Source: Lachnospiraceae bacterium
Lineage (GTDB): Bacteria; Bacillota; Clostridia; Lachnospirales; Lachnospiraceae
NCBI GenBank assembly: GCA_910575255.1
Contig: CAJTEM010000037.1
Location: 1-47,393 of the forward strand
Direction of reading: 5' to 3'
Length of the DNA stretch: 47,393 nucleotides
The notes under the pieces are model-generated. The model searched no databases. It saw only the letters and a program-made list of their open reading frames with translations, and was not told the origin of the DNA. The first letter of the stretch is position 1, and each line of letters starts with the position of its first letter. Shown here piece after piece: positions 16,849 to 40,579 of the stretch. The translations under genes were made by a program, and so were the position numbers.

Positions 16849-16879
16849 AGGCTCCTTCCTCCCATTTCAGGAAATCTCT

Positions 16880-17555: not shown

Positions 17556-17628
17556 TAACTTTTATATGGCAATATGCCAAATATTTCCGAATGCAAAAAA
17601 ACCGGTAGCATTTTATGTAAAATTTTAG

Positions 17629-17634
17629 TACAAT
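17629..17634 (+). promoter_or_regulatory. Candidate -10 box for the Na/phosphate cotransporter
   Basis: TACAAT preceded 17 nt upstream by a poor -35 (TAGCAT). It is about 67 nt before the ATG. Weak call. Confidence 0.3.
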
Positions 17635-17702
17635 CCTAAGTAGGCTTTCTACATACGGACTTTTTATTTTCAAAGATTTAAGAAGAGAATACAGGTGAAA
17701 AT

Positions 17703-19963: not shown

Positions 19964-22900
19964 CTACAGTTTGAATTTTTTCATAACTTCTATATTCACT
20001 GGTGATAACTCTATCTGTTGCTTACTCTTTGTCTTTTCATGTAAGCCATGCGCAATCTGTGTGGTCAAAATGACATTCTTTCCATCAAATTCCGACTTTA
20101 TCAACGTACTCCTCAATCTTTGGCAGCAGTAAAAACATGCAACTGTAATAATATATGGAACTTCCATGTTAGTATCAGGATTTTCGTTTTCTAACAGAAT
20201 TATCCTTCTACTATGTTTCTTTTTTGTATCCTCACCATAATCAAAAGTTTCCATAGGAATATCTGAGCATATTGGGCAAAAAATATCATAACTGCCTCGT
20301 GCTGTCAGTAAACGGTACAAAATCTCCGTATCATAAATTAGTGATATTCCTTCTTGCAATTCAGTCCACTCTAACAGAAGTTTCTTCTTTACTTTTGCAA
20401 GATTTCTTCTTCGAGACATATAACTCATTGTCTTTGTTGTGTTGCCGTTATGAATATAACCTTCAAGAAGTTCCAAATTCTTTGTACTCACACCAATTTC
20501 ACCAAGCACATTCGTAACAGCCTGCTGAATACCATCCGGAATGTTATCATAAAAAATATACACATTCTTATCTGTCGAGCAATACTTTGCAACCTCTCTA
20601 AATTTCTTCGCGGCGTCTGTTTTTACCTGACATTTTCCTTCTCCAAAATATGCCAGAATTTTTCTTCTTGAATCAGACACAAATCTATAAGCATGAACTC
20701 GATATCCAGTAATCTTATAAACAAACTCAGCATTTTCCATTGGAACTTCATTATTACTATTTTCAACAATTTCCGCTATCTCTACGTCTGACGGAGCAAA
20801 TTCATCAAGCAAATATCTCCTGTTTTCACCTTCCGGGCTTTCAATCATAACAGGCAATACATTTTCGACTATGTCTTTTGTTGAAATTGATTCCTCTCGG
20901 CATGAGATATGAATATACTTCTGAAACTCTTTAGACAGCATACATCTGTACTTAATAGCATTTATAAAGTCTGCAAAGCTTTCTAAGTTAATATCTCTTA
21001 TGCATGACAATTGAATAATCTGCTGCTCATCAATCGTATAATTCTTGAACTGAGAATCCCTTCTCCTCATTCCCTTAGCCTTTGTTTCAAAAAGTCTAAG
21101 ATCTGTTCCAGATAATCTTAATCCTGTAAATTTCTCATCGATAGCTATTCTCTCTAGAAGTAGCTGTGGCTCTGAAAGATTTTCATAAGAATTCTGAGAA
21201 GGCCACATTTCATAATAATCATAGGTACCATCCCAACCAGCAACTGATTTGCCCACTGGTCGAATACATCGAATCATATATGAATTCTTTTTATTACCAT
21301 AATCCTGATATCTCTTTTGTAGTAATTCCTGTTTCAACTTGAAATACTTTTCATCATAAAATTGATTCTGATACTGTGACAAAAATCCATGATTTGAAGT
21401 TAATATTCCATTAAACAGATAATCTTTGAAACTCAGATTTACATACCGAATACTACCATCATAAGCAATGGCATCGTTTAATCCATATCTACCAATGAGC
21501 TTCAAAAACATTCTCTCCTCAAAATATTTACCAACTTCTTCTTGGAGCCTAAGAAGCCAGCCATCAATTTCTGCATCTGAAACAAATAGTTCATCTCTAC
21601 GTTCTTTAGAAATCTCGTAAACTAAATATTCCCCAACAGAAGGAAAATAATTAGTTATTCCAGATGCAAGTGTTCTATTTTGATTCGGTATTTCATTACT
21701 CTGATCTGAAAGCAATCTATATACCTTGCAAACGCCATAAATACATCTTGAATCTAAAATAAGTTCCTGCAAATCATATGTGTTTTTCTTCTCAACAAAC
21801 TCAAAATAATTCTCTCTTAGTTCCTTTACGATGTCACCTTCCTGGTATGAAGCACTATCATAAGCTTCTTTTCGCTTATGATCAATAACAAAAGTCTTTG
21901 CTCTCTCTTTATATTTTTTGGGTAAAAATGAATTGCTGTAATAAGCTTCATACAAAGGTGTTTCTGGATAATCTCTTCTGTCCACCATCAAATATCTTGC
22001 AACTATATTATGGAACACGTCGCTTATAGCATCAGCACAAGATAAATTCGCAACCTCCTCCGAGCACATCAATCCATACAGGTTCTTCATATATCCTCTT
22101 AATTTATCATATACTTCATTTATCTTTTCCTCGCTGTCACCAACATCATTTCTATGTATGTTTGCATACTTAGAGTCTACCAACATACCAATTGGCAATA
22201 GCTGCTCTTTAATATCTGCCTTCAAATAGTATGTTGAATACATTCTATTGTTATCTGTTGAAAACTCTGACACAGGAAATGCCACCGAAATATTGCTATT
22301 AGAGAAAACTATGTATTCCTTTTCATATTTGGCATTCTGATCAACCTCTACCTTTAGCTGAAGCACTCCAATTCTCCAGCTTTCCTCAGCTATTGTAACT
22401 GCCTTTACTTTTATAACATCTTTACAACCAATCTTTACATTATGCGTTCTTCCCTTAAACTCAAGATTTGAAACGCTTCGTTTTGTCTTTCCATTCAAAT
22501 GCATAAATATCAAAGATCGCATATCAAATACCATTTCTGAATCAGCTCCAGTCAGAAAAAACCTAAGAACATCCACATTTTGCTTGCCACATAAGTACTC
22601 GATAAGCGCAGACAGCTTTCCTGTATTGAACTCGCTTTCAAATCTTGGATCGTAACTAATAAAAAGCGATGTGTGTTCACCAGACCATGTTGGATTTATC
22701 TTTGTATTTCCTACTATATTATTATCACTGCCAGTCTTATTAATTGAGAAGTCAAATAGTACATTGCTCTCGATTCTCAAATTTTCTACAAATTTAAAGA
22801 ATGATTTTATTCCTACGCCAAACTTTCCAGTCTGGCTATCATCGTCGGTTTTATCAGACATTTCCCTATTTAAAAAAGCATATATATTAGACAGTGAAAA

Positions 22901-23254
22901 CCCTTTATCATCGTACTGGCATTCAAGAGTAAGTTTATTTCCCTTCTCTCCCGCAATTATTTTGATAGAATCACCATAATGAAGATCATTTGCATTTTGG
23001 ATAATTTCATTAAAATATCCTTCTCTATATCCTTGTAGTGAAGATATGCCTTGAGATACTGAAGTTGCCCTACATATTGTCTCAACCAACTTATTCCGGT
23101 TAGAATCCAAAAAATCATCTAGCCATATTGGTTTCTCCCCTTCTCTTCTCATCAAATATGCATTAGCATCAGATATTTCTTTCGCATAATCTGGAGACAT
23201 ATTTTCCGTTTTTATTCCTTTGGCAAGAATCTCATTAATATCCTGATAATGCAT
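19964..23254 (-). CDS. Large Hsp90-type GHKL ATPase with C-terminal Cys cluster
   Basis: A 1096-residue cytoplasmic protein, last gene of the chaperone operon. The N-terminal quarter is a GHKL ATP-binding fold of the Hsp90/sacsin type: the N box (E83 and N87 in EIIQNAND), the G1 motif (YDDKGF, 114-119) and the G2 glycine motif (GKFGVGIKS, 143-151). A middle Hsp90-like region with beta strands follows; the remaining ~700 residues are unrecognised. Near the C-terminus CPIC and CFYCC could form one zinc site. ATG at 23254 is preferred (AGTGAGG 7 nt upstream) over the GTG at 23260. Related GHKL ATPases occur in defence systems. Its job here may be clamp-like remodelling or sensing; that is inference. 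Confidence 0.8.
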   Translation of the reverse strand: MHYQDINEILAKGIKTENMSPDYAKEISDANAYLMRREGEKPIWLDDFLDSNRNKLVETICRATSVSQGISSLQGYREGYFNEIIQNANDLHYGDSIKIIAGEKGNKLTLECQYDDKGFSLSNIYAFLNREMSDKTDDDSQTGKFGVGIKSFFKFVENLRIESNVLFDFSINKTGSDNNIVGNTKINPTWSGEHTSLFISYDPRFESEFNTGKLSALIEYLCGKQNVDVLRFFLTGADSEMVFDMRSLIFMHLNGKTKRSVSNLEFKGRTHNVKIGCKDVIKVKAVTIAEESWRIGVLQLKVEVDQNAKYEKEYIVFSNSNISVAFPVSEFSTDNNRMYSTYYLKADIKEQLLPIGMLVDSKYANIHRNDVGDSEEKINEVYDKLRGYMKNLYGLMCSEEVANLSCADAISDVFHNIVARYLMVDRRDYPETPLYEAYYSNSFLPKKYKERAKTFVIDHKRKEAYDSASYQEGDIVKELRENYFEFVEKKNTYDLQELILDSRCIYGVCKVYRLLSDQSNEIPNQNRTLASGITNYFPSVGEYLVYEISKERRDELFVSDAEIDGWLLRLQEEVGKYFEERMFLKLIGRYGLNDAIAYDGSIRYVNLSFKDYLFNGILTSNHGFLSQYQNQFYDEKYFKLKQELLQKRYQDYGNKKNSYMIRCIRPVGKSVAGWDGTYDYYEMWPSQNSYENLSEPQLLLERIAIDEKFTGLRLSGTDLRLFETKAKGMRRRDSQFKNYTIDEQQIIQLSCIRDINLESFADFINAIKYRCMLSKEFQKYIHISCREESISTKDIVENVLPVMIESPEGENRRYLLDEFAPSDVEIAEIVENSNNEVPMENAEFVYKITGYRVHAYRFVSDSRRKILAYFGEGKCQVKTDAAKKFREVAKYCSTDKNVYIFYDNIPDGIQQAVTNVLGEIGVSTKNLELLEGYIHNGNTTKTMSYMSRRRNLAKVKKKLLLEWTELQEGISLIYDTEILYRLLTARGSYDIFCPICSDIPMETFDYGEDTKKKHSRRIILLENENPDTNMEVPYIITVACFYCCQRLRSTLIKSEFDGKNVILTTQIAHGLHEKTKSKQQIELSPVNIEVMKKFKL

Positions 23255-23270
23255 ACACACACCTCACTTT

Positions 23271-26255
23271 TTATTTCCAAGCATTACCTGCCCTATACTG
23301 ACCTACTTTTGACCTATATATCATTCCGTCTTTATAGCAAAAGATTCCTTCAGATGAAAAACTCTTTAACTCATCCTCATCAAAAACACATTCGTCTATA
23401 AGCTTAATAATTTCATCAATTTGCTGTCTGATAGTTTGCTGTTTTTTAGGTGGATTCACAATCTGACTATCATTTAGTGTAATCTTTTGTTCATCTCCAT
23501 CATTGGCACTTTCGGCTCCAACAAAAATATCACTATCACTTTCAACTTTTATCAGTCCTATGATTGCTAGCCAATTTTTAGCATTCTTCTTGGATTCAAG
23601 AAACATACGATACATCTTCTGATACGCTGTTCTGTCTGGTTTGGTTCTTTTCCAATATTCCAAATATTCACTTAAAATTTCATAATATTCATCTGAAATA
23701 TCATCTCGTTTCTCTCTAGACAAAGCTTCCACCGCACTTAGTCTCAAATTTCTACCAAAAGACTCTATCTTGTGCCACATGGGATCATCATTTATTCTTT
23801 TTTCATATTGACGTATGTCCCTACGAATTATTTTCATTTTCTGCTCATTCTCTTCCGAAAGAATATATTCTTTTTTATAATATTCCATCGATTCACGAAT
23901 TGCTTTTCCATTACGTTTTATAAATTCCGGATAATACAAAACAGTGTTGCGAATAGGCATAAACTGGCATGTAACATCTATTTTTGTAGTACAATAGTAA
24001 AGCATTCGATTTATTTCCAAATCGTTCTCATCAATTTTGCACTCATTAAGCAAGAACACCATATCTCTTGATTTGGCATCCTGTTGCGTGTCGATTCTGT
24101 CAACCCTACCAAAACGCTGTTCTAACTCAATACTTGTAAACGGGAGTTCATAATGAATAACTCCATCGAACTCCCCAAGGTTTAATCCTGTTCCTCCGGT
24201 TTTACCAGTTGTGATAAAAATGACTCTTTTGTTTGCTCTCAAGGATTGCATTAGCGTATTTATCAGCTGCCCATCCTGTACATTTTCTAATCCGTATTGG
24301 TTTTCATATTTTCCGTATTTTTCAGCAACAATACATTCTGTAAATACATCCTTAATCTGTGCAAAAATGTTATCTACAACATATTTATGTTCGCAGAAAA
24401 TAATATAGGACTTCTCATTTTCATTCAGTAACTCTATTAATCGCGCTAATTTGCCATTTCTCCTAACTTCATGGACATTACTATATCCATACTGTTTTGT
24501 TGCAGCCCAATAAAGATAATCATCATCTTGGTCATACTGAAGTGCTGCCAATGCTCCTTTATTTTCTTTAATTAAGTAGAAAATATCATCTCTATCCACC
24601 CATCTCTTACATGAAACAAAATTAATTTTACGTTCTGCTGATATCTGCCCCATATCTTCTCTAAACCAATTAACATACACATCTCTTGCTGACGGTTCAA
24701 ATTTGATTATCGGATCAATATCCGCAGTAATTTGCTTATTAAGTACATTTTTTACAAGCCCAACATAATCTTCAAATAGTCTCTTTCCCTTTGCATTTAC
24801 AACAATAGGTGTTGCTGTAAGCAACATTATTTTATTTGCTCTAATGTCAAAATAATTATCAAATGAAATATGTGCTTCATCAATAATAACTAGATCCCAA
24901 TCTTCTCTTTCAGAAAATGTTTCAACAGAGCCTTTTAATGCTGAGTATGAGCCATTCTTATCTGATCCCTGCTTTTGTCCAGCTATCATAATCAGATGTT
25001 CTGTGTTTTTAAAAAAAACCTTCTTTAGGTCTCCATCATACATCTCACCTTTATCACCCTGTTCAATAATATGTGCAAATCGGCCAAGCTGTCTTCTGAT
25101 ATCACTCTGCCAATCTTCACGCTTATTATATGGACAAACCACCAGTACTTTTGCCTTTCGTCCCTCTGATATACTCTTCTGCAATGCATCTCGAACAGCA
25201 TACAATGCCGAAACTGTCTTTCCTGTTCCTACCTCGTCCATAACAATAGAGAAATCATTATTCGCAACTTGTTCCGAAGCAAGAACCTGTTTTGGATAAT
25301 ATATAACATCCAAAACAGGTTGTCTGCCATTCCAGAAAATATCAAAAATATTTTTTCCTTTTGTATCCACTATATCGGTGTATTCCATCACTTCATCTAT
25401 GTGATCCACCTCGCCCAGATACGGTTCAAGACAACTGTAAATGTCTGTGCCATTCTTTTCATCATATGCAGTTATGTAATTCAAGTTCCACTTTGCACAA
25501 ACAAGAGGTGTTATCCATTCATATTCTTTACCTGCAAAATGAAAAGCTCTTTTTATTTCCTCTGCCGATAAATCCGAAATAATTCTGCTCACTATATCAA
25601 ATCTACGAAAAATGAATGCGTAATGTAAAAGTGAAAACGGATATTTCAATGAAAAATTTTCTTCGCATTTTTCATAAGATGTTAGGTTGTCCATCACATC
25701 CTCTGTCGACAAACATGGTTGATTATTAGATATCATACCTAACGTATATCGGTACAACTTATTCTGAAACGATTCAAAATTCTTATTTTTATCAGTTTTC
25801 TCAATTTTAGGAAATAATTGTTTTATTTCGTCATAAATCTCCTCTTCAACATAAAAATCATGGCATTCATGACAATAATACCCACTTATTCTCTTCTCAT
25901 ATCCAGCCACCCTAAATACACCATATCTGATATATTCCAACTCTTCTTGATCTTTATAACAGGTGTCCGGTATGAATGGTTCTGTATATGGTTTTAATGA
26001 CGTTATGTCCGAACACACAATTTCCAAATTGTCTTCCTGCCATGGTCCATCAACTAAATTAATAACTTTTTTTGATCCATAATCGAAAGAACTGTTAGGT
26101 AAAGCAGCATCAATATGGATGTAATAGTGACCACATTTTTCGCAATAAAATATTGGTTCATTTGAAGATACTCCATCTAGGCTAATTGGTATCATTCTCT
26201 CTGACTTTATTACTTTACCATGCACAGGACACTTTATTTTCCACTCTGATGCCAT
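23271..26255 (-). CDS. SNF2/SF2-type helicase-like ATPase with Cys-rich N-terminus
   Basis: A 994-residue SF2 motor, probably a DNA or RNA translocase. Residues 1-145 carry CP..H and CEKC (38-41) and CHEC (128-131) motifs that may bind zinc. The motor shows Walker A DEVGTGKT (340-347), DEAH (459-462), motif III TATP (480-483), and a C-terminal lobe with TGGTGLNLGEFD and motif VI QRFGRVDR (713-720), as in SNF2/RapA-like proteins. No nuclease or methylase domain is visible. ATG at 26255 has AGGAGG 7 nt upstream; the longer frame would use TTG. It lies 18 bp after the Hsp70 gene and 16 bp before the GHKL gene, so all three are on one transcript. Confidence 0.85.
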   Translation of the reverse strand: MASEWKIKCPVHGKVIKSERMIPISLDGVSSNEPIFYCEKCGHYYIHIDAALPNSSFDYGSKKVINLVDGPWQEDNLEIVCSDITSLKPYTEPFIPDTCYKDQEELEYIRYGVFRVAGYEKRISGYYCHECHDFYVEEEIYDEIKQLFPKIEKTDKNKNFESFQNKLYRYTLGMISNNQPCLSTEDVMDNLTSYEKCEENFSLKYPFSLLHYAFIFRRFDIVSRIISDLSAEEIKRAFHFAGKEYEWITPLVCAKWNLNYITAYDEKNGTDIYSCLEPYLGEVDHIDEVMEYTDIVDTKGKNIFDIFWNGRQPVLDVIYYPKQVLASEQVANNDFSIVMDEVGTGKTVSALYAVRDALQKSISEGRKAKVLVVCPYNKREDWQSDIRRQLGRFAHIIEQGDKGEMYDGDLKKVFFKNTEHLIMIAGQKQGSDKNGSYSALKGSVETFSEREDWDLVIIDEAHISFDNYFDIRANKIMLLTATPIVVNAKGKRLFEDYVGLVKNVLNKQITADIDPIIKFEPSARDVYVNWFREDMGQISAERKINFVSCKRWVDRDDIFYLIKENKGALAALQYDQDDDYLYWAATKQYGYSNVHEVRRNGKLARLIELLNENEKSYIIFCEHKYVVDNIFAQIKDVFTECIVAEKYGKYENQYGLENVQDGQLINTLMQSLRANKRVIFITTGKTGGTGLNLGEFDGVIHYELPFTSIELEQRFGRVDRIDTQQDAKSRDMVFLLNECKIDENDLEINRMLYYCTTKIDVTCQFMPIRNTVLYYPEFIKRNGKAIRESMEYYKKEYILSEENEQKMKIIRRDIRQYEKRINDDPMWHKIESFGRNLRLSAVEALSREKRDDISDEYYEILSEYLEYWKRTKPDRTAYQKMYRMFLESKKNAKNWLAIIGLIKVESDSDIFVGAESANDGDEQKITLNDSQIVNPPKKQQTIRQQIDEIIKLIDECVFDEDELKSFSSEGIFCYKDGMIYRSKVGQYRAGNAWK

Positions 26256-26273
26256 TTCATTTCCTCCTAACAA

Positions 26274-27737
26274 TTAACGGACTTTAACATCTTTATTTCC
26301 CTCAGTTCCCGTTTTTAGATCCCTGGAACTTACATGAAGAACTCTGTTTTTATCAAAATCGAATGTAACCTCTATCTGCGGTATACCAGCACGAGCACTT
26401 TCAATACCTTTATGCTCATACTCGTCATAGTAAAAATCATTTGAGATATCCTCTGTGTCTTCTCCCTCATATATTTTAATTGATACAGACTGCTGATAAT
26501 CGCTAACAGTTGTAAAAGTATCACTCATTTCTACCGGATACTCTGTTCCTTTTGGAAGAATGATACTGAATCTATCATTGATTATTCTGATACCAAATCC
26601 ATGAGATAATATATTGGTTACCTTGATTACCTTATCTTTAATTAATGTCTTATCACCAGTAGCTTTAATAGCCGCACCTATCGCCACTAACTTGGATAAA
26701 TCCTTATCGGAATATGGTTTTTGATTAAATATTCTTTCAACAAGCGATCTCACTGCCAGTATATTTGATGAGCCTCCAACAAGAATAACCTTATCTATCT
26801 CGCTTGTAGAACACTCTGCATCACTAAGACATCTTTTAATAATGCTTTCTATTCTATCAAGTAATTCCTCACTACGATCCACAAATTCATCGCGCGTAAT
26901 CCTTAACTGGAAATTAATTGCTCCATTATCACGAGGAATTAAAGAAGGAACAATTATTTCCGTTTCCTCCATCGCAGACAACTCAACCTTTGCTTTTTCA
27001 CACTCAAACTGTAATTTACGCATAACTTGCTTATACTGTTTCTCTTCTAATCCAGATTTTTCCTGACTTGCCAAATTTACACCAGTATCTCTTCTAATCT
27101 GTCTTAAACACAGTTCAACTAAAGCAGTATCAAAATCGTCACCACCAAGTTTACGGTCTCCATCTACATTTATTGTCTTAAATTCGTTACCATTAATACT
27201 TAAAATTGAAACATCAAAGGTTCCGCCTCCTAGATCAATTACAAAGATTTTCTGGTTATCCTTTTCATCCATTCCATATGCAATAGATGCAGCCATAGGC
27301 TCTGGAAGAATTTCTATAACCTCAAGACCCGCTGCCTCAGCTGCTTTTTCAGTTTCGCGATACTGCTTTGACGTAAAGTATGCCGGAACAGTTATGACTG
27401 CTGCACACTTTTCTGCTCCATAGGTTTTTTTTACTTCCTTCACCACTTCTTTTAGAACATTTAGTGCCACTTCTGTCGGTGTGAATTTTCTATCTTGTAT
27501 TTCCCACACCTTGTCATCATCACCCATGTAAGTCTTTGACGACATAATTACATTCTCTGGATAAGTGATGGCTTTTTTCCTTGCCGAATCCCCTACCATT
27601 ATTTTTCCATCTCTGTAACACAAAACAGACGGCAATAGTTCTTTTCCTTTGAATTTAACAAAATCAAGACTATTATGAAATCTACAACACACTGTATTTG
27701 TTGTGCCAAGATCAATTCCAAGCGTTACTTTTTCCAT
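26274..27737 (-). CDS. Hsp70 (DnaK-like) without lid, fourth in the operon
   Basis: A 487-residue Hsp70. The nucleotide-binding domain is complete: phosphate-1 GIDLGTTN (7-14), AVITVPAYFTSKQ, connect motif EPMAASIAYG, phosphate-2 DLGGGTFD, and adenosine motif VILVGGSSN. A short beta substrate-binding domain follows (about 385-487). The alpha-helical lid of DnaK and its disordered tail are missing (DnaK is about 610-640 residues). It is the most DnaK-like of the four Hsp70s here. RBS AGGAGG lies 6 nt before ATG; it follows the helical orphan by 16 bp. Confidence 0.93.
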   Translation of the reverse strand: MEKVTLGIDLGTTNTVCCRFHNSLDFVKFKGKELLPSVLCYRDGKIMVGDSARKKAITYPENVIMSSKTYMGDDDKVWEIQDRKFTPTEVALNVLKEVVKEVKKTYGAEKCAAVITVPAYFTSKQYRETEKAAEAAGLEVIEILPEPMAASIAYGMDEKDNQKIFVIDLGGGTFDVSILSINGNEFKTINVDGDRKLGGDDFDTALVELCLRQIRRDTGVNLASQEKSGLEEKQYKQVMRKLQFECEKAKVELSAMEETEIIVPSLIPRDNGAINFQLRITRDEFVDRSEELLDRIESIIKRCLSDAECSTSEIDKVILVGGSSNILAVRSLVERIFNQKPYSDKDLSKLVAIGAAIKATGDKTLIKDKVIKVTNILSHGFGIRIINDRFSIILPKGTEYPVEMSDTFTTVSDYQQSVSIKIYEGEDTEDISNDFYYDEYEHKGIESARAGIPQIEVTFDFDKNRVLHVSSRDLKTGTEGNKDVKVR

Positions 27738-27753
27738 ATCCTATCCTCCTATG

Positions 27754-29175
27754 CTATTCCCATGCTTTCACTCTATCGAAATGATTTTCAAACATATAAT
27801 CTTTTATCGTAATTCCCTTAAGCTTATGCTCAACTACATTATCAACCCACATACTATCGAGAATATTATAAAAATCAGACGCCTTACCTAAAGAACGGAA
27901 TTTCTGTAACGACTGAGCCAAACGTTCACAAAGCCTAGTAAGTTCTCTATTTTCTCCCTTTTTCATACTATGCTCAAAAAGCCATGAATAAGTTTTTTCC
28001 ATTGTCTGTGAATATTCAGAACTTAATTGGCTAAATGAATCAAGGATACTTTGTTCAAATTCTGGTGATTTCATATTAATCCAATAATAAGCAATCTCTG
28101 TAGGCGGAACACCTTTTAATACATCCATAGAGATGTCAGCAAATGATAAATACTTTCTCTTATCTGTCTGCTTAATTAATGACATCAAGCCATCTATCTT
28201 AGCCTTTCTCTCTTCATAAAGAATTTCATTTAACTTTGTTGTTTCCCATACCTTCTTATCAATTTCACGCTTAATATGATTCTTTATGTAAGGTGACTCA
28301 TATACTTTGCAGATAGTATCAAACATTCTAGCTAATGAATCCTTATCCTTCTCTGTACAAAAGAGTTTGCGAATTACTCTTATATACTGTTTAAACTTTC
28401 TAGGGCTTGTTGCCTTAATCTGTCCTACTGCTTCATTAAATGCTTGTTCACCATATGAAGCATATGCATCTATCAATGCAAAGTTATATGTATCCTCGAC
28501 AGCCCTCTTTTCAATCGACGGAGCTTCCATTTCCTTGCAAAGAAACTTAAAGAATTCTTTCTTTTCCCCTTCATCAAGAATTTCCTTAAGCTTTACAAAT
28601 ACATTCCTTTTCAAAACACTAGGATAATTATTAAAAGCCTCTAAAATGAAACCTATCTTAAACTCTAATGTCATTGAGGCATCTTTGTGTTTAGTCTCAT
28701 CTATTATTAACTTAAACAATGTGGCTCTTTCTTCCTCATCAAATTTACGAATATCTTGTTTCCAATAATTGAGTCTCGCCATAGATGTAATACTCTTCAT
28801 ATAATAGAAAAAAAGCATATGTCTTAATTTCTTCTGCATATATACGTTATTTCCGAGCACATCCTCCATCATATAGGAGAGAGCTTTATAATTTGCATTT
28901 TCAAGAATTGGCCGTAATTCCTTTTTAAACTTTCTAATATCTTTAACATCAAGAACACCTGCGTTTCTCATAATGACTTTAACAATAATATCATTACTAA
29001 TACCTTTAGCCTTTGCCATATCAACTACCCCGCCATAGGCTTCATTGCAAAGGTTCTTTTTAATCTCATATTCATCCTGCTTTGAGATATAAAGATTTGC
29101 ATTCTTCTCAAATCTCTTATTAAGAGAAGCATTAATCTTTTGTAATGTGTCATTTAATAAGATTTGATCAACCAT
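27754..29175 (-). CDS. Helical protein of unknown function
   Basis: A 473-residue cytoplasmic protein predicted as almost wholly alpha-helical, rich in Lys/Glu, with no signal peptide and no motif I recognise. ATG at 29175 (MVDQILLND) is chosen because AGAAGGAGAAGG lies just upstream; the longer frame would begin inside the preceding Hsp70 gene. The repeated pattern of ~35-residue helical hairpins suggests an alpha-solenoid (HEAT or TPR-like) scaffold. It sits between two Hsp70 genes with gaps of 13 and 16 bp, so it may be a co-chaperone or adaptor in place of the missing J-domain protein. Confidence 0.65.
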   Translation of the reverse strand: MVDQILLNDTLQKINASLNKRFEKNANLYISKQDEYEIKKNLCNEAYGGVVDMAKAKGISNDIIVKVIMRNAGVLDVKDIRKFKKELRPILENANYKALSYMMEDVLGNNVYMQKKLRHMLFFYYMKSITSMARLNYWKQDIRKFDEEERATLFKLIIDETKHKDASMTLEFKIGFILEAFNNYPSVLKRNVFVKLKEILDEGEKKEFFKFLCKEMEAPSIEKRAVEDTYNFALIDAYASYGEQAFNEAVGQIKATSPRKFKQYIRVIRKLFCTEKDKDSLARMFDTICKVYESPYIKNHIKREIDKKVWETTKLNEILYEERKAKIDGLMSLIKQTDKRKYLSFADISMDVLKGVPPTEIAYYWINMKSPEFEQSILDSFSQLSSEYSQTMEKTYSWLFEHSMKKGENRELTRLCERLAQSLQKFRSLGKASDFYNILDSMWVDNVVEHKLKGITIKDYMFENHFDRVKAWE

Positions 29176-29188
29176 TGTCCTTCTCCTT

Positions 29189-30874
29189 CTAATTGATTTC
29201 AAACTCATCAATAACTGCTTTCTTTTTTAACAGTTCCTTACTCTCTTCTTGATTAATCTTTATCTCTTCTCCAAGTTCTTCTAGCGAAATAATAATTACA
29301 CCATTTTTGTCAATACTCCAGGTAAATGTAACCTCTTCACCCACTTCAAATCTTCTTGGTAAGTCCACGACTTTTCCTGCAATCGGAGTAAAATCTTCTG
29401 GAAAATTTGGATCTTGACCATTGAAAAGAAAAATTGGCAAATGCGTCATGTTCTTTTCTGGGATTGCATATGTAAACTTTCCTGTCTTCTTAACAGCAAT
29501 TTCACTCTTTGAGATTAGCTTTTCAAATCCACTATTTGTTCTTAAAAAAATATCTTCAGCGAGCCTATCGTCCAAGTTCATTTTTTTCAAATGAATATTA
29601 TCTGGAGAATAATTATATGCATCAATTGCAGCCCCTTTTGATACAGAAGTTGTTGTATCTACCGTGATAATTGGTACATCCTCACCAAAATACTCTTTTA
29701 ACGTACTTTCTACTGCATAAAAGTTTGACATCCCACCAGTTAAAATAATCAAGGAGATATCTTCCTTTTTCAAATTTTCCGCCGCATTAATACTCTCTTT
29801 TACAGGTCTTAAAATATTCTGTCTACCAGAATCTTTAAGTATTCCGGCATATACTTCCTCAAGTGTAACTTTATCCAAATTGATTCCCAGAACAAACTGT
29901 CCATTTATTACTTCAAACTCTGGCGTCATAACAATCCTGGCAAGTCTTCTTGGATTGTCTAAATGCTCTTTCAGTTTATTATTAAGATCAATTTTGTATT
30001 TCTCTGCTTGTGATACAATTCGTGCAATTATTTTGTTCTGATCTTCTATAGGTCTTGTGCTAATCTTTTCCGTTCGATTTTCAAACTCACTTAAAAAATA
30101 TGCACCTAGATACTGATCAAAATCATTACCGCCAAGGTTTTCTCTTTTTGATCTCGAAGCTATACTAACCTTCATACTCTCGTACTCATAGTTCTCTTCA
30201 TCTTCCTCAAGTTTTGCAATGCAAATATCAAGTGTGCCTCCTCCTATATCGTAGATCATAATATGTTTACCATTTAAATCCAAACTATTTTCCATCAGAC
30301 AGCCATCGCCATTATTGATAAAATACAGCAACGTTGCTGCCGGTTCATCGAGAATATGAAAATCGGTAAAACCTGCCATCTCTACTGCATCCCTTGTAGC
30401 CTGACGTTCATCAGAATTAAAGGCAGCCGGAACAGTTACTACCAGATGGTCGATTGGCTGGTCAAACTGCTCCTCTATAGATTTTTTCATCGTTTTAAGA
30501 AGCAGGGCTGAGCACTGTGTCATATCCAGTTGGAGACTACTATTCTCATCCTTTCCGGGAACAGTAATCATAGATTCTCCACCTATTCTTGTCTTTATTC
30601 CAGTAAAAGTATTCATAGGTTGATTACCAGTAGCATATATATTTTTAGCCCATTCACCTGTATATACTCTTTTTCCATTTTCATCTATCTTGCAATAAAA
30701 GTATGATGGAAGTGTATACTTGTCTCTTGTTAGATTAAAATCCTTATCATACTGCAAAATTGGTATGGATCTGAGATGTTCTATAGGCTGCCTTAGCCTT
30801 CTCTCATCAGTCTGAATGACAGATACCGTACTATTTGTTGTTCCTAGGTCTATTCCGACATATAATTGTGCCAT
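29189..30874 (-). CDS. Hsp70-like protein, third in the operon
   Basis: A 561-residue Hsp70 homologue. It has GIDLGTTN at 7-14, LVVTVPAAFNSDERQ, the connect motif DEPAATLLYFI, phosphate-2 DIGGGTLD and adenosine motif LTGGMSNFYAVES. The C-terminal third (about 440-561) is a divergent beta substrate-binding region ending in a Lys/Glu helix; there is no full DnaK lid. Compared with the fourth gene it has an extra loop near residues 25-50 (IEHLRSIPILQYDKDFNL). RBS AAGGAGGTG precedes the ATG. It is 31 bp after the GrpE-like gene. Confidence 0.9.
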   Translation of the reverse strand: MAQLYVGIDLGTTNSTVSVIQTDERRLRQPIEHLRSIPILQYDKDFNLTRDKYTLPSYFYCKIDENGKRVYTGEWAKNIYATGNQPMNTFTGIKTRIGGESMITVPGKDENSSLQLDMTQCSALLLKTMKKSIEEQFDQPIDHLVVTVPAAFNSDERQATRDAVEMAGFTDFHILDEPAATLLYFINNGDGCLMENSLDLNGKHIMIYDIGGGTLDICIAKLEEDEENYEYESMKVSIASRSKRENLGGNDFDQYLGAYFLSEFENRTEKISTRPIEDQNKIIARIVSQAEKYKIDLNNKLKEHLDNPRRLARIVMTPEFEVINGQFVLGINLDKVTLEEVYAGILKDSGRQNILRPVKESINAAENLKKEDISLIILTGGMSNFYAVESTLKEYFGEDVPIITVDTTTSVSKGAAIDAYNYSPDNIHLKKMNLDDRLAEDIFLRTNSGFEKLISKSEIAVKKTGKFTYAIPEKNMTHLPIFLFNGQDPNFPEDFTPIAGKVVDLPRRFEVGEEVTFTWSIDKNGVIIISLEELGEEIKINQEESKELLKKKAVIDEFEIN

Positions 30875-30905
30875 TTACACAACACCTCCTTGTTTCTATT
30901 CCAAA

Positions 30906-32615
30906 TTAGATCTGAGCCTTTGCATTTTCATCAAAGCTCTTTTTAGAAGTTTTCTGTTCAACGGCTACTGTTTCCTCGCTAGCTTCCTGATTTACTTCTG
31001 ATTTAGGTTCATCAAACGTTGTTTTTCTCTGCTTCTCACCTGTCTGAACAGGAAAATCTCCGTCCTGTTTTTCCTCCTCTGTAACTTTAGAGAATTTGGC
31101 TGCACTAATTATCTCCCCATGAAATGAAAGACCAGTTCCCACAACTCTATACTTGCCTGCCCCTTCAAGTCCCGAATAGGTAGCCATCATCTTTTCAATA
31201 TCTTCATCGGAAAAATCTATTTCCTTACCCTTTTCGTAAAATCCATCTCCGTCGATTACTACTCCAAGTTCTGTCAACATTGTCCAAATCACATGAACAT
31301 AGTTCTCTGTCGAATCTTTAATTGCTTTAACATCTTCATATTTTGAAAGTAGTTGCTTAACCACCTGCAGTTTACCTTCTTCTATACCTTCCTGACGAGC
31401 CGTCTCAATTCTCTGAGCCATTACCTTCTGCTCATTTTCGTTACTATCCGCCTGATTTTTGAAAGTTTCACGTTTACGAACCAAATCTCTGGCAGCATAT
31501 CCAAGCTGTTCTGTTATCTTCTGAGAATAACGTACCAAATTGATAATATCCTCTTCTTCTGCATTTACAGGAGGAATCTCCATACTAATATTAAGTCCCT
31601 TATCTCTAAGCAAATTAGCTATCTCGTCCAGCTGATCAAGTCTCGTCAAATTTCCTTCAATGCCTTCGACAGACTCTACCAGATCACCCATATTTTTATC
31701 CATTGTCTTAACCCTAGATAAGATCTGATTCTGTGATTCACTTATGCTTCTTTCAATATCATTCACCTTTCGAGAATTTTGAGCAATAATATTAGTTAAT
31801 TCATCAATATTTCTTCCTTGTTCCTGAACAGCTCCTTTAAAGTCCGACCTGAGAGCCTCATCATTTTTCGCAATTGTTTCCAAAATATCCTCAACAGCAC
31901 TGATTATATCCTGATTAATCTGCTCTCCTAACTTATCTACAGCAGATACAATCTTTCTTGTATCACTATTGCTATCATCTTTTGTCTTACCATTAGATGT
32001 TTCTGTTTTTTTCTCATCAGCATTCCCCTTCTCAGATGACATATCTGAACCGGAATTGCCTTCAACAATCTGCGTTGTTTTTAAATTCAAACTTTCTTGT
32101 GAAATATTTTCCCGCTGCGATTCACTTTGTACATCAGTAGTTTTGTTCTCAACACCTCTTCCACTCTTTATCTTTTTTGCCTCAATAATTGCTTCAGCGC
32201 CTAACTGAAGCAATTTCGCCTTTGCATCCTCGCGAATCTTCTTCTTCGCTGCCTTTTTATCAGACTCTTTTTTAGTACGCATTTCCGATGAAAGATCAGG
32301 TACTTCAACCCTCAATGCTGGATCACTAACAATTTTCTTCGCATATTTATCTGTATTTTCCGGCCATTTTATGGGCGCACCTTCTTCAGTAATATTACTT
32401 ACAATAGGTTGCATATCCTTATCCAAGATTACATTTCTATTTTCACCTAAAGCAAGATACATATATTTCTTTCTAAATTTTGTTTCTGACATTGTCTCTA
32501 TCTCCTTCGCATTCATTTCGCTATCATCTGCTGTTTCAATAGCTTCACTCACAATCTGGCCTTTTGTGTCTTCTACTTTCACTTTCTTTTTTTTGTTGAA
32601 AGGAAAAATCCCCAT
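30906..32615 (-). CDS. Long coiled-coil protein with GrpE-like C-terminal region
   Basis: A 569-residue, very charged protein. It opens with MGIFPFNKKKK, followed by low-complexity Lys/Glu sequence, a predicted coiled coil at about 215-300 (IDELTNIIAQNSRKVNDIER) and a second helical segment at about 350-430. The stretch at about 415-505 (VIWTMLTELGVVIDGDGF, then AGKYRVVGTGLSFHGEIISA) resembles the helix-plus-beta end of GrpE, the nucleotide exchange factor of Hsp70. The similarity is weak and is my inference. Flanked by Hsp70 genes, it is the natural candidate to release ADP from one or more of them. Confidence 0.6.
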   Translation of the reverse strand: MGIFPFNKKKKVKVEDTKGQIVSEAIETADDSEMNAKEIETMSETKFRKKYMYLALGENRNVILDKDMQPIVSNITEEGAPIKWPENTDKYAKKIVSDPALRVEVPDLSSEMRTKKESDKKAAKKKIREDAKAKLLQLGAEAIIEAKKIKSGRGVENKTTDVQSESQRENISQESLNLKTTQIVEGNSGSDMSSEKGNADEKKTETSNGKTKDDSNSDTRKIVSAVDKLGEQINQDIISAVEDILETIAKNDEALRSDFKGAVQEQGRNIDELTNIIAQNSRKVNDIERSISESQNQILSRVKTMDKNMGDLVESVEGIEGNLTRLDQLDEIANLLRDKGLNISMEIPPVNAEEEDIINLVRYSQKITEQLGYAARDLVRKRETFKNQADSNENEQKVMAQRIETARQEGIEEGKLQVVKQLLSKYEDVKAIKDSTENYVHVIWTMLTELGVVIDGDGFYEKGKEIDFSDEDIEKMMATYSGLEGAGKYRVVGTGLSFHGEIISAAKFSKVTEEEKQDGDFPVQTGEKQRKTTFDEPKSEVNQEASEETVAVEQKTSKKSFDENAKAQI

Positions 32616-32629
32616 ATTTTCGTTTCTCC

Positions 32630-34117
32630 TTATTCAAGAATTCCATCATAGCATTCACCATTGCTATATACTTTATATGCAACCATTCCTGACTCATCTG
32701 TACCAAGAGCAATTTCAATCTTTTTATCATCTCCCAATACCAAATGCGAAACTGGTATCTTACCAATATAGAAACACTTCTTGATATCTCTTGAGTTTCC
32801 CTGATACACTTCGATATCACGATTATCCTTATTCTCTGCAAGAGCATAGGATCTTGGCTCTGAAAAATTGCCATATCTTTCGTTCTTTTCAATCAATTTA
32901 TCAAAATTTGCGCCTACTCTCACGCCAATTGAATAGCTCAACTTCTGAATAATTTTTATATTATTGCGGTTCTGTGCTTTCATGCCGCAATAAACCCCTG
33001 CACCATAACCAACCATTTTATTGATTTCAATGCCTTCACAGGCTTCAGGTTCTCGACCGAAGATATTCTCTAAAGCTTTCCTAACCATCTGAAGATTACT
33101 TGAGCCCCCAACTAAGAGTACCCTGTCTATATCATCCGGTTCTAATCCCTTGTCTCCACAATTCCAAAGAGCATCATTTACTGAATCCCTTATTTTCTCT
33201 AAGACTCTCTCTCCTCGAAGCCAATTTTCTATTTCTTCACCGCTTACTGTAGCTGAAACATGTATTCCACTGATATTATCATCCACATCTTCTTCTTCAT
33301 CTTCATCCCAGTAAAGCGATTCTTCTTTCATCTGAACTACTCTTGCATTCAAATCACTTTGAAATTTTAGTCTCTGTTCAGTATCACTAATTTCACTTAC
33401 ATTAATACCTGCTTTTCCAGCTACTTTTGTAAACAAAATATCATCTATAACCTGTCCCCCAAAATCTCTAATACCTTCTGTATTAAGAACCTCTATAGAT
33501 ACCCTTCCATCTGGGGATTTCTCGTATGCAAAAACAGTAATATCTAAAGTTCCACCGCCAAAATCAAATACCATGATTTTCTCACTGTGTCCCATAGTTG
33601 AATTCTTTTGGAATATTCCATAGCTTATTGCAGCAGCTACAGGTTCCTCAATCAAATCTAGCACATTTAGTCCTGCTCTTTCAGCTGATCTTCTTATTTT
33701 CAGTCTTTCTTTATTTCCATATGCATACGGTACGCTAATGACAACACCATCTATATCAGCACCACCATTGTTTGCTGACACCTTCTCTTTGATATAAGTG
33801 AATATGTCTGTGGCAACATCAACAGGGGAATACTTTGTGCTTAAAGCTGGTATTGTATATTCCCAATTATCTTCTACCAGTCTTCTCTTCACACCAATTA
33901 CACCATTTCTAGGATCGATAGAAGCACGTCTTACTGCTGCCTTTCCAACAAGTTTATCTCCATTTTGGCAATAGTAGATAGCATTAGGAAACACTTCATC
34001 TCCTGTATAAATTGTTGGATCCAAGTTTGGAACAGCCTTAATTGATCCATCACTCTCATTCCATCTAGTGACATAATTAGTACTTGTACCAAAATCTATT
34101 CCTAAATATATAGCCAT
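32630..34117 (-). CDS. Hsp70-like protein, second in the operon
   Basis: A 495-residue Hsp70 homologue. ATG at 34117 is used because its A overlaps the stop of the preceding gene (TGATG) and GGAGGAG lies about 9 nt upstream; the longer frame would start with TTG. Motifs: GIDFGTSTN (6-14), VVISVPYAYGNKERLKIR, connect EEPVAAAISYG, phosphate-2 DFGGGTLD and adenosine LLVGGSSN. The C-terminal ~90 residues are a short beta region; the lid is absent. An acidic loop (DEDEEEDVDDN, about 272-282) is unusual for Hsp70. Confidence 0.9.
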   Translation of the reverse strand: MAIYLGIDFGTSTNYVTRWNESDGSIKAVPNLDPTIYTGDEVFPNAIYYCQNGDKLVGKAAVRRASIDPRNGVIGVKRRLVEDNWEYTIPALSTKYSPVDVATDIFTYIKEKVSANNGGADIDGVVISVPYAYGNKERLKIRRSAERAGLNVLDLIEEPVAAAISYGIFQKNSTMGHSEKIMVFDFGGGTLDITVFAYEKSPDGRVSIEVLNTEGIRDFGGQVIDDILFTKVAGKAGINVSEISDTEQRLKFQSDLNARVVQMKEESLYWDEDEEEDVDDNISGIHVSATVSGEEIENWLRGERVLEKIRDSVNDALWNCGDKGLEPDDIDRVLLVGGSSNLQMVRKALENIFGREPEACEGIEINKMVGYGAGVYCGMKAQNRNNIKIIQKLSYSIGVRVGANFDKLIEKNERYGNFSEPRSYALAENKDNRDIEVYQGNSRDIKKCFYIGKIPVSHLVLGDDKKIEIALGTDESGMVAYKVYSNGECYDGILE

Positions 34118-34911
34118 CAATCTTTTCTCCTCCAAATTCTTGCCTGTCCATCAATAATTTTTACTCCATCAGCGAACAAATAAGGATATCTACGTATCTC
34201 ATCAATGGCATCAAACTTATTAAAATCATCTGTAAAATTCTCTGACGAATCAGTTGTCGGTTCCATATACTCTGGCTCGATTCTATCTCCAATTGCAACC
34301 GACTTTGTATACACTCCATTCGTAGCTAGGAAATTATTAACCTCTTTAATCACCATTTCGTATATCGGTCCCGAATTATTGTTAATACGTTCATACAACG
34401 CGTCAAATAGAACAGATATGATATAATTAGCAATCATTTCTCCGAACAACTGCTGCAGTTCGTCTCGAATTTCATTGACAGTAGATAACTCCTTAAACTT
34501 TGCTGCACGTCTCTTTTTCTGGGTGTTATACACATTCAGGCATTTTTCGATTGCGCCCGCATAACTCTCAAGACTGTTCTTGCTCTCGTCATCAAGATCT
34601 GTATTTCTGTCAAGCAGGTCATCCATACTATCAAGCAGGTCATTGAGTCTATCTTCAAAACAGCTCAATATATCTCTTACATCATCATATCCATTACAAG
34701 TTGCATAGATTGGCTCCGCTGTTTTTTCAATATAAAATGAAGTAATAGCTCCAGCAGCAGCTTCTTTTGTTTCGCATTTCTTTGTACTAATCCACTCAGG
34801 AACAATAACTTTTAACTCACTTTGAAAAAATTTTCTGACCCCAACCAGGAGATTCTTAGTCTCCTGGTGTTCATATTCCTTACTGGTATCAAACATTATT
34901 TCATTTGTCAC
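34117..34911 (-). CDS. Helical protein of unknown function
   Basis: A 264-residue protein starting with GTG (GGGAGGGG 6 nt upstream). It is largely helical, with an amphipathic central part rich in Asp/Asn/Leu (LNDLLDSMDDLLDRNTDLDD) that looks like a coiled coil. No domain is recognised. It ends inside the start codon of the next Hsp70 gene, so its amount is probably tied to that Hsp70 by coupled translation. It may be a partner or regulator specific to it. Confidence 0.65.
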   Translation of the reverse strand: MTNEIMFDTSKEYEHQETKNLLVGVRKFFQSELKVIVPEWISTKKCETKEAAAGAITSFYIEKTAEPIYATCNGYDDVRDILSCFEDRLNDLLDSMDDLLDRNTDLDDESKNSLESYAGAIEKCLNVYNTQKKRRAAKFKELSTVNEIRDELQQLFGEMIANYIISVLFDALYERINNNSGPIYEMVIKEVNNFLATNGVYTKSVAIGDRIEPEYMEPTTDSSENFTDDFNKFDAIDEIRRYPYLFADGVKIIDGQARIWRRKD

Positions 34912-34960
34912 GTATATCCCCTCCCTAACTCTCTAAAAATCCCTTGCAGGTTCAATCACT

Positions 34961-37120
34961 CTACATCGTACTCCGACGATCTATTGACATATTACCCTTG
35001 TCTACTACTGTCCCATCTTTTTTGATAAGCGTCACATCTGTTCTGAGCTCATACTGTTTTGTAATTTCAAACTTAACAATTACATCAATCTCTTCCATTT
35101 TCATTGGAGGAATATTGGTCATTATTAACTCGTCCAGATACTCGATTCCTCGATCGTAAGTCTTTACAGCTTCTTGTGCTTCACTCTTTCTTGAAAGCAC
35201 TTTAATGTTTAGCTGTGTCTGATAATCCTCAACAAGAGAATATTTTTTTTCTGCAGTTGCAGGAAGTGTTGTTCCAGCCGGAATAATACAGCTATAATTC
35301 CACTTTTCAAGTGCGACACCAAAATCCTCATATGTCATATCAAATACTTGAGGTTGCATTTTTATAAGATGATTTTCTCCAAACATAGCATCTGCAATAA
35401 TTGCGGCTCCTTCTGCAATAAGTGTTGCAGCATTTTTATCTGCTGAAGGTTTTCTTCCAAAATACTTTTCTACCTGTTCTTGAATACACGGAATAAGAGA
35501 TGTTCCACCAGCAAGAATAATATTATCGACATCTGATATCAGCATACCTGCCTTGCTTAATCCGTTGTTCATTTCGGCAATAGTCTTATTAATAGTAAAC
35601 TTAATGACAGTTTCAAATTCCTGACGACTCATATCTATGAATACTGATTTCTGTTCATCATCATTAATGTAAAGATCAATCAATGTCATCGTAGTTGACT
35701 CACTAGCACTTAATTCCATTTTGCAACTTTCAGCAGCCCAATAAATTGTTTTTACATTATAGACATAGTGTTCTGTACTAAGTTGAGTATCCTCCTCAGA
35801 ATACATGGATAAATCATAATGATCTTCCAAGTAATCATATACAAATTCCTCAATCTTATTAGTGAGATGCTCTCCACCAAGTTTTGAATTTCCAGCAGTA
35901 GCACACACTTCAAATCCGCCTTTACCATCTGACTTGATAATTGAAACATCAAAGGTTCCGCCACCGAAATCATATATAAAGACTGAAGCCTCATCGTTTG
36001 CATCTATATTGTAAGCAATGGATGCCGCAGTAGGTTCCTTCTCAATATGTATCTCTTTAAAACCCGCATCCAAACCAGCCTTTTTTGTATTCTCAATCTC
36101 AACAATCTTGAATGTTGCTGGTACAGTTATTACAGCCTTGCTAACCGTCTGCTTTAATGCTTTTTCTGCTTCCTGCTTAAGATAAGCAAGAAACATGGTA
36201 GTAGCTTGAGTTCCGGTAAGTTCTATTTCATCAAATTTCGACTCGTTACATTTCTCAAGACTAAACTCTTTCAAAGATAAACCTTTGATCCCCATAAAGC
36301 TTGCTTTAAGTTTAGCTAATCTATTATCTGAGGATATGAGTGTTGGATTCTGTTCCTTGTACGTAAGTGCAATAGAAAGTATTTTATTGTCATTGTTCGC
36401 ATTCCTGAAACTTTCTGAAAAGTTTTTGAAGAAGTCTTCTGAAAGCAGGGACTCATCAGATTCAGCAAATACAATTCTATCTCTATGTCCGATGATTTCC
36501 TCAAGAGCCTTCTCAGCAGAATATTTTGTATTAATGTCTGTTGCTCTGTATTCGAGTTCCTGTTCAACGGTGATTGGAAGAATAACAACATCGTCTTCAT
36601 CAAAAAGTTCAAGAATATTAGGTTGATCAATAAACACATTTGTATCAATCACATAATACTTCTTGTCATCCTGCCCTACTTTCTCAGTCTTTGGAATCCT
36701 TACCTTTATCTTTTCAGAATCAGTTCTTAAATGTTTCTTGAAAAGAGATACTGCTGCTCCCTGACTCATAGCCTTTGCATAAGATTTCGCTTTTTTTCCG
36801 TAATAGACAGTATCCTTATCCTTAAAGAAAATAAAAGATGGGATTAAACATTCGTTTTTTACTTTCACAAATTTTGTTGCGCCATTCTTATCTATATATG
36901 CAATTACAGAATTTGTTGTTCCTAAATCAATACCGATTTCTCGTCCTTCACTCTCAGCATCATCCTGGTTCTCTGCTGACGCCTCTTCTTCAGAATCATC
37001 ACTATCTGAAGATATGTTTTCACTGGTCTCCTCATAATCACTACCATCATTAAAAAAGAATTCTTCATCTTCTTCGAAATCATCGAGATTAAAACTATTT
37101 TTTCTTTCCTTATCAAACAT
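34961..37120 (-). CDS. Hsp70 with a PIN ribonuclease-like domain inserted in its ATPase domain
   Basis: A 719-residue protein, first gene of the operon. ATG at 37120 has AGGAGG 8 nt upstream; the longer ORF has no support. Residues 1-60 are acidic and disordered. Hsp70 begins with GIDLGTTN (63-70) and is broken near residue 150. Residues 154-285 look like a PIN domain: D159 in VIDTNVF, E187/E189 in VEQELE, D244 in NDNKILSIAL and D265 in SSDNRLA match the four acidic metal-binding positions. Hsp70 then resumes (AVITVPATF near 329, DFGGGTFD 384-391, ILAGGTSLIP) and ends in a beta substrate-binding domain with no lid. Likely role: RNA cleavage controlled by ATP or client binding; inference. Confidence 0.88.
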   Translation of the reverse strand: MFDKERKNSFNLDDFEEDEEFFFNDGSDYEETSENISSDSDDSEEEASAENQDDAESEGREIGIDLGTTNSVIAYIDKNGATKFVKVKNECLIPSFIFFKDKDTVYYGKKAKSYAKAMSQGAAVSLFKKHLRTDSEKIKVRIPKTEKVGQDDKKYYVIDTNVFIDQPNILELFDEDDVVILPITVEQELEYRATDINTKYSAEKALEEIIGHRDRIVFAESDESLLSEDFFKNFSESFRNANNDNKILSIALTYKEQNPTLISSDNRLAKLKASFMGIKGLSLKEFSLEKCNESKFDEIELTGTQATTMFLAYLKQEAEKALKQTVSKAVITVPATFKIVEIENTKKAGLDAGFKEIHIEKEPTAASIAYNIDANDEASVFIYDFGGGTFDVSIIKSDGKGGFEVCATAGNSKLGGEHLTNKIEEFVYDYLEDHYDLSMYSEEDTQLSTEHYVYNVKTIYWAAESCKMELSASESTTMTLIDLYINDDEQKSVFIDMSRQEFETVIKFTINKTIAEMNNGLSKAGMLISDVDNIILAGGTSLIPCIQEQVEKYFGRKPSADKNAATLIAEGAAIIADAMFGENHLIKMQPQVFDMTYEDFGVALEKWNYSCIIPAGTTLPATAEKKYSLVEDYQTQLNIKVLSRKSEAQEAVKTYDRGIEYLDELIMTNIPPMKMEEIDVIVKFEITKQYELRTDVTLIKKDGTVVDKGNMSIDRRSTM

Positions 37121-40394: not shown

Positions 40395-40579
40395 TTTCCT
40401 TTAAAACTTCCTAAAAACGGTTTTTTTATTCATTCACACAAAAAGATTTCCACACCAGCCCCTGATTCCGGAGGTGTTTTCCCCCGTCATTTTGACGGAC
40501 CGCTTTTGAAAGGGAGTTCCCTTTTTTCCCTGTTTCTGATAAACTATGTTTATCAGAAATGCACGGAAGGAGAAGCCCC

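Follow-up and report, generated by a model that had tools for sequence, protein, structure and literature searches.

A window of 47,393 nucleotides, the whole stretch of DNA that was analysed, from a Lachnospiraceae bacterium (positions 1 to 47,393 of contig CAJTEM010000037.1, assembly GCA_910575255.1) contains an operon of nine consecutive minus-strand genes, designated A to I (positions 19964-37120). The operon is real, conserved and rare, and consists of two modules: a pair of genes (H-I) for an SNF2-type helicase and a sacsin/Hsp90-like ATPase, and an array (A-G) with four Hsp70s, the first of which carries a predicted PIN nuclease domain. From sequence comparisons, it may tentatively be read as a two-module, probably anti-phage, defence operon in which the Hsp70s would act as ATP switches.

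The genes were delimited from a list of open reading frames and checks of motifs, with starts fixed by alignment to relatives. From A to I, the intergenic gaps are 49, -1, 14, 31, 13, 16, 18 and 16 bp, the gap of -1 between B and C being a TGATG overlap, and all nine genes have a purine-rich ribosome site, the weakest being that of I (GTGAGGT). An earlier note on this DNA had described exactly such a set of minus-strand genes, with gaps of at most 49 bp, one TGATG overlap and individual ribosome sites, on an AT-rich island by an IS66 element, and each of these points was confirmed; the GC content is 35.2% in the operon versus 51.2% (1-19500) and 49.6% (42500-47393) in the flanks.

The nine-gene order recurs in two other Lachnospiraceae, SIG304 (loci L016 and L031) and MA2020 (L017 and L032, with C seen in part), and so the set stands together in three genomes and is not scattered; within the searches made, no known annotated system was identified that matches it. 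In SIG304, A and B are separated by three further genes, which encode a metallo-beta-lactamase/RMMBL protein, a 364-residue protein and a fifth Hsp70 of 943 residues, and a fragment of an IS110 transposase lies between D and E. Protein identity between the window and SIG304 is 82.0% for A, 61.0% for B, 88.5% for C, 45.9% for D, 86.1% for E, 64.8% for F, 84.6% for G, 66.6% for H and 66.5% for I, with a synonymous difference of 0.73-0.81 per site in all nine genes, which is near or past saturation. Where synonymous sites are unsaturated, in the comparison of I with U_127133, the ratio of nonsynonymous to synonymous change (dN/dS) is 0.16; the frames used for selection began one codon early in A and were longer in C, F, H and I, which leaves the selection result unaffected. 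A further Lachnospiraceae genome, 28-4, has a broken I (L022:9968-13296), and the other operon proteins were not found by tblastn in the 43 kb of 28-4 searched.

Relatives are scarce at every taxonomic level scanned: I was matched in 3 of 391 genomes of the class (its own and two weakly) and 3 of 397 of the family (its own, G558 and one weakly), and B in 3 of 398 of the phylum (its own and two weakly), matches at E-values of 2e-5 to 9e-4 in these scans not being counted as relatives. The PIN domain of A was found in one of the 397 family genomes at E<=1e-12, its own, and a PIN-Hsp70 in two of the 14 genomes searched with A. Plasmid records yielded one match of I, none of D or of two Ureibacillus array proteins (described below), and 254 of A, none of which covers over 80% of A and which, among the matches listed, are mostly annotated DnaK. 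A phage origin was rejected on the basis of searches in which viral contigs contained no relative of C, I or F and two weak helicase-core matches of H, and phage records contained no match of I.

Separability of the two modules

A genome scan with an alignment of I gave 187 pattern matches, 16 of which encode a relative of I, and a seventeenth locus came from one plasmid record. A complete H adjoins I in 14 of the 17 loci, and the gap, measured in 13 of these pairs, ranges from -56 to +21 bp; of the remaining three loci, L015 has a contig that ends within H, L022 has the broken I only, and L030 has no H. Ten of the 14 pairs have at least 6.9 kb of upstream sequence (L019, L026, L027 and L028, with less than 1.4 kb, were left out of the count, and L026 and L027 are near-copies). 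Two of these ten (L016 and L017) have Hsp70 genes, and no Hsp70-like frame is present in the stretch examined for the other eight (L011, L018, L020, L021, L023, L024, L025 and L029). The Hsp70-linked loci form one clade of three rows in a tree of H (14 rows; support 98/97) and, together with L015, whose contig stops short of the upstream region, one of four rows in a tree of I (15 rows; support 100/100), both trees being rooted at the midpoint only. More distant pairs of helicase and sacsin/Hsp90-like genes were noticed at L013:6655-13806 and L014:4741-9689, the latter among genes that appear by eye to be for division and peptidoglycan.

An array partly homologous to A-G is present in Ureibacillus xyleni (L038, L039 and L040; contig G782:C13). 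BLAST matches were obtained for its A-like, B-like and G-like proteins (4e-56, 3e-11 and 3e-116, respectively), which stand in conserved order; its C-like and D-like proteins, between the BLAST-matched genes, were assigned by gene order and appearance, and two more proteins have an Hsp70 fold by eye, with no Pfam match. The A-like Hsp70 groups with A at 100/100 in the Hsp70 tree, and has a weak kinase-like N-terminal stretch and no PIN domain; the G-like Hsp70 has a C-terminal VWA domain; and the C-like protein has no Pfam HSP70 match, a degenerate phosphate motif and a very long branch. A search with the C-like protein of 250 genomes of the Ureibacillus order found it in Ureibacillus itself alone. 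The array sits between genes that look by eye like ispD and ispF, and adjoins genes for a phage-baseplate OB-domain protein, a DUF4280 protein and a WYL protein; the Hsp70 module may here be put to another use. No H-I pair lies beside it, and the pair of that genome is on another contig (L021). Because H-I and a related Hsp70 array can each be found without the other alongside, a single nine-part machine was rejected; of the one nine-gene system proposed earlier, what stands is that the genes travel together in three genomes, as two separable modules.

Proteins of the array and of the helicase-ATPase pair

The four Hsp70s are encoded by A (34961-37120; 719 residues), C (32630-34117; 495 residues), E (29189-30874; 561 residues) and G (26274-27737; 487 residues), all on the minus strand. 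Pfam HSP70 matches them at 6.3e-77, 2.5e-54, 1.6e-51 and 4e-104, respectively, scoring between 175.7 and 349.4 bits where the cut-off is 20.6, and thus the four Hsp70s of the earlier note, like its SNF2 helicase, were confirmed by Pfam. G is the most DnaK-like; C matches the PADLOC candidate PDC-M61B at 9.7e-15, as E and G do more weakly; and all four match a DnaK-like phage family of PHROGs, phrog_22485 (G at 5.7e-99). MreB_Mbl is a secondary Pfam match in all four, far below the scores of the HSP70 profiles. Aligned with the host DnaK, all four end before its helical lid and, over the portions of the alignment inspected, retain the phosphate and adenosine motifs. No J-domain family at E<=0.1 (Pfam) and no HPD motif were found in the nine proteins, so that both the lid and the operon-encoded J-domain partner of a canonical DnaK-DnaJ-GrpE system are missing. 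The N-terminus of A is acidic (25 D/E and 3 K/R in 58 residues), and this tail is longer in the two relatives.

A is predicted to carry a PIN nuclease domain, on account of both its family score and its motifs. The PIN_4 domain (36275..36655, minus strand; Pfam 7.6e-16, 59 bits against a cut-off of 21.9) interrupts the ATPase domain directly after LFKKHL, at a point occupied in DnaK by a short stretch, in what we take to be Hsp70 subdomain IB, and the insertion is at the identical place in SIG304 and MA2020. The four acidic motifs are at A residues 157 (VIDTN), 184 (TVEQELE), 242 (NNDN) and 261 (LISSDN), and are kept in the two relatives aligned. The PIN domain that the earlier note had seen in the first Hsp70 is therefore real.

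The other three proteins of the array, B (34117-34911; 264 residues), D (30906-32615; 569 residues) and F (27754-29175; 473 residues), all on the minus strand, match no family above the curated cut-offs of Pfam and NCBIfam and nothing in PADLOC; B, F and I match nothing in PHROGs, and D weakly matches a transposase family there (3.5e-4). B is an orphan distantly related to a protein of the Ureibacillus array (blastp 2.9e-11 with L038, and alignment), and its PDB profile search gave one chance-level match (E 0.35). F is an orphan predicted by AlphaFold2, from a longer 485-residue frame, to consist of helices only (mean pLDDT, or predicted local distance difference test score, 78.6). D, a coiled-coil-like protein, shows the lowest conservation among the nine (41-46% identity). 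A GrpE-like region in its C-terminal part (31089..31490, minus strand) is suggested tentatively by a collinear alignment with 11 GrpE proteins from these genomes, non-significant at E 0.13 over 117 columns (hhalign), and by a low-confidence model of its C-terminal half in which one long helix is followed by two shorter ones and a small beta part, with a mean pLDDT of 47.8 and values of 68-76 in the last 55 residues. GrpE has its elements in this order too. The PDB profile search of D returned three matches, at E-values between 0.048 and 0.32, and GrpE was not among them. The GrpE-like factor of the earlier note, probably D, is accordingly a label not established, being missed by the GrpE family model as well.

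H (23271-26255, minus strand; 994 residues) has SNF2 and Helicase_C domains (Pfam) and a motor most like that of DpdE, with DrmD among the next matches (PADLOC, NCBIfam) and a resemblance to RapA; it also matches the phrog_62 helicases of PHROGs. Its N-terminal extension (25707..26255, minus strand) contains two CxxC motifs, and such a Cys-rich extension of about 180 residues is present in the three Hsp70-linked helicases and absent from the other H proteins compared: in 13 other H frames (from 12 contigs) that match most of the motor, the match starts at protein residues 3-34, corresponding to residues 189-218 of H in the window. I (19964-23254, minus strand; 1096 residues) matches the NCBIfam model P_loop_sacsin at 3.4e-11 and, in its ATPase part, TmtA of PADLOC at 2.7e-15; no PDB profile matches it at 0.01. 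Stretches of the types EI[IV]QNAND, D.GF and G.GIKS, presumably GHKL boxes, are conserved in the three sequences aligned, as is a C-terminal CPIC...CxxC. The Hsp90-type GHKL ATPase that had been named has the sacsin/Hsp90-like match and the GHKL-type stretches behind it, but the score of 43.5 bits falls slightly under the family cut-off of 50. The SNF2 motifs of H and the GHKL motifs of I are intact.

Relation to known systems and genomic neighbourhoods

No published description of this gene combination was recognized in a literature search limited to open-licence papers, a comparison that took in excerpts of a HEPN survey (PMC3710099), a YprA preprint (PMC12458937) and a TRADD-N paper (PMC8195603). 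By the tests run, which are of sequence, the operon does not appear to be a DO-GTPase/Hsp70 system, a CoCoNuT, DISARM or Dpd. Closest to it are the DO-GTPase systems that employ Hsp70 and GrpE, and the CoCoNuTs with CnuD; the defining GTPases of both are unmatched here. The GAP1-N2/DO-GTPase predicted conflict systems, as outlined by Kaur et al. 2020 (PMC7159879), use Hsp70 and GrpE with variable partners, and some have a second Hsp70 that lacks the peptide-binding domain. Hsp70 is common to both, whereas the counterpart of GrpE here, D, is only weakly GrpE-like, no DO-GTPase, GAP1 or FNIII family was found at E<=0.1 (Pfam) in the nine proteins, and the present operon has four Hsp70s, a PIN domain inserted in one of them, and the SNF2-Hsp90 pair. 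A cluster that includes a DnaK-like Hsp70 recurs at L033, L036 and L037, in genomes where H-I is present as well; scanning revealed an AAA protein and a weak match to DO-GTPase2 at L033, and an NrdG-like radical SAM protein at L036. The Hsp70s of these DO-GTPase-like clusters form a separate group in a long-branched tree. Two tandem Hsp70-fold proteins followed by an NrdG-like radical SAM gene were also seen (L034:9423-13934). L059/L081 was rejected as a relative, being by eye an unrelated HscC-like set of J-domain protein, Hsp70 and GrpE.

CoCoNuTs are predicted to be RNA-targeting defence systems, and their CnuD has Hsp70-like nucleotide-binding and substrate-binding domains with HEAT-like repeats, and motifs that PMC11090510 describes as partly degenerate, in contrast to the intact Hsp70 motifs here; McrB and McrC were not matched in the nine proteins (Pfam, PADLOC). 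H scores 71.6 bits against the DpdE cut-off of 500 and 51.4 bits against the DrmD cut-off of 610, and no Drm or Dpd model matches the other eight proteins at E<=0.01 (PADLOC). In genome G448, a helicase gene is directly upstream of one for a sacsin-like protein, in the same order as H-I, but the two match H and I over short stretches only. Hachiman HamAB may offer a parallel in manner of working, with a helicase sensor that restrains a nuclease effector until a trigger; its parts differ from H-I and A-G, and a sequence relation is not claimed.

Defence genes are found near H-I in several other genomes. The pair at L018 (7440-13300) is flanked by Wadjet type I and type II sets with JetA/JetC; a type IIG restriction-modification gene and a GajB-like helicase are near H-I at L011, where an AbiEii-type protein is annotated; and neighbours elsewhere include TmtA (L026), a HerA-like protein (L024), AbiH (L020), a TIR protein (L021) and PARG (L023). 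Nothing telling was seen among the scanned neighbours of H-I at L019 and L029. The operon of MA2020 is near genes for a relaxase, an MT-A70 methylase and a 2303-residue helicase/methylase-like protein.

In the window, the operon is followed downstream by a Na/Pi cotransporter gene (17703-19523), and upstream are genes for an NrdD of 560 residues (37541..39223, minus strand), an NrdG-type radical SAM protein (39204..39746, minus strand) and an IS66 transposase (40559..42043, plus strand). NrdD and NrdG were rejected as operon members because the genome has another NrdD, 420 bp separate the end of NrdD from the start of A, and no NrdD was seen upstream of A in MA2020. The NrdD beside the operon is the second copy in the host genome, the other being in a 740-residue frame elsewhere. 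Beyond IS66, a kinase gene (42760-45432) is matched in 29 of 61 related genomes, six of them with long alignments besides its own. A search for an empty site found the opposite flank absent from the stretches of these relatives that were examined. DNA similarity to the kinase gene in the six relatives stops at its 3' end (window 42753-42767), and the right flank therefore varies among relatives.

Proposed function and alternatives

The operon is best read as a variant of the conflict systems driven by nucleoside triphosphates, the Hsp70 array being its distinctive part. Defence, we infer, would be the function: H-I, in the manner of helicase-based defence systems, would engage nucleic acid that is invading, foreign, abnormal or damaged, and the signal would pass from H-I to the array. 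An Hsp70 without a lid is not expected to retain clients in the normal manner, and because the four lack the lid and there is no J-protein among the nine, they are read as switches of ATP state; array A-G, its Hsp70s assembled with B, F and D, would be an ATP-driven switch, not a folding machine. Exchange factors of the GrpE kind contact the subdomain-IB side of DnaK, and for this reason the gating is placed at the PIN insertion: the nucleotide state of the Hsp70s, perhaps set by D acting like GrpE, would gate the PIN domain of A, nucleotide exchange opening the ATPase domain so that PIN is exposed or aligned. Upon a trigger from H-I, the PIN domain might cut RNA, causing growth arrest and stopping infection. 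The modules were probably joined once, within Lachnospiraceae, as the helicase gained its Cys-rich N-terminal extension, which may be the docking site for the array.

Several observations weigh against this scheme. The defence neighbours of H-I were picked by eye in other loci, with no background rate, and the genes around the window operon look like ordinary metabolism, as by eye do those around the copies in SIG304 and 28-4; the co-occurrence with defence genes, which the earlier note had named as a check, was seen for H-I in several other genomes and not for the surroundings of the operon in the window. The complete copies number three, all in one family, and hence the company that the genes keep may reflect few acquisitions; the count of I relatives is a lower bound, because the scan reaches only relatives that have the two scanned patterns. 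The GrpE family model finds the housekeeping GrpE alone in the genome of the window, and one GrpE each in SIG304, MA2020 and Ureibacillus, D not being found. Loss of the lid need not abolish chaperone work.

H-I alone might be the defence system, with the Hsp70 cassette as a chaperone for its assembly, activation or quality control and a PIN domain that regulates expression or executes nothing. This is unlikely, yet it would fit the findings that eight of the ten full pairs that have 6.9 kb or more of upstream sequence show no Hsp70s, that some pairs are flanked by defence genes, and that the helicase extension is seen only in Hsp70-linked loci, as could be expected of a client or docking site. 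The Ureibacillus array, however, has no H-I beside it and so is not specific to H-I, and four Hsp70s with a conserved PIN domain seem to exceed the needs of an assembly chaperone. It is decidedly less probable that the operon serves stress or proteostasis, the Hsp70 set, an exchange factor and the Hsp90-type partner refolding or sequestering proteins while a PIN RNase slows translation: Hsp70 and Hsp90-like ATPases do occur together here with intact Hsp70 ATPase motifs, but all four Hsp70s lack the helical lid and HPD is missing from the nine proteins, the operon is rare (to judge by the PIN domain, confined to one family genome) and a low-GC block that includes an SNF2 helicase, and a housekeeping GrpE is encoded elsewhere, with DnaK and a DnaJ-like frame adjoining it by eye.

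Slightly less credence than to proteostasis is given to a module for stabilization of, or addiction to, a mobile element, in which the other array proteins would hold the PIN-Hsp70 in check as a poison. PIN domains are common among toxin RNases, the MA2020 operon is near relaxase and MT-A70 genes, and IS66 lies beside the operon in the window as the IS110 fragment lies inside the SIG304 copy; against these points, the PIN domain sits within a large ATPase and is not a small free toxin, 28-4 retains a broken I alone in the stretch searched, and we know of no addiction module that approaches nine large genes over 17 kb. Very improbable is the idea that the Hsp70-fold proteins are actin-like assemblers (forming a scaffold, acting in partition or assembling an injection apparatus) instead of switches. 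The phage-baseplate OB-domain and DUF4280 proteins beside the Ureibacillus array and the secondary MreB_Mbl matches would fit it, but HSP70 profiles outscore MreB by far, and no tail, tube or baseplate family is matched in the nine proteins (Pfam, PHROGs).

Hsp70 is usually treated as a machine of folding and housekeeping, and one or two Hsp70s already form part of predicted conflict systems. A bolder and rather doubtful extension of the defence reading is that an ordered hetero-assembly of lidless Hsp70s is a switch that gates a built-in nuclease and can be plugged into different executors (the SNF2-Hsp90 pair in Lachnospiraceae, the set associated with baseplate and DUF4280 proteins in Ureibacillus), which would make it a new type of immune machine. 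The SNF2-Hsp90 pair is singled out as a separable two-gene candidate for defence. If the reading of the Hsp70s as ATP switches is true, four or five lidless Hsp70s with a built-in nuclease would make the nucleotide cycling of Hsp70 a device for immune signalling.

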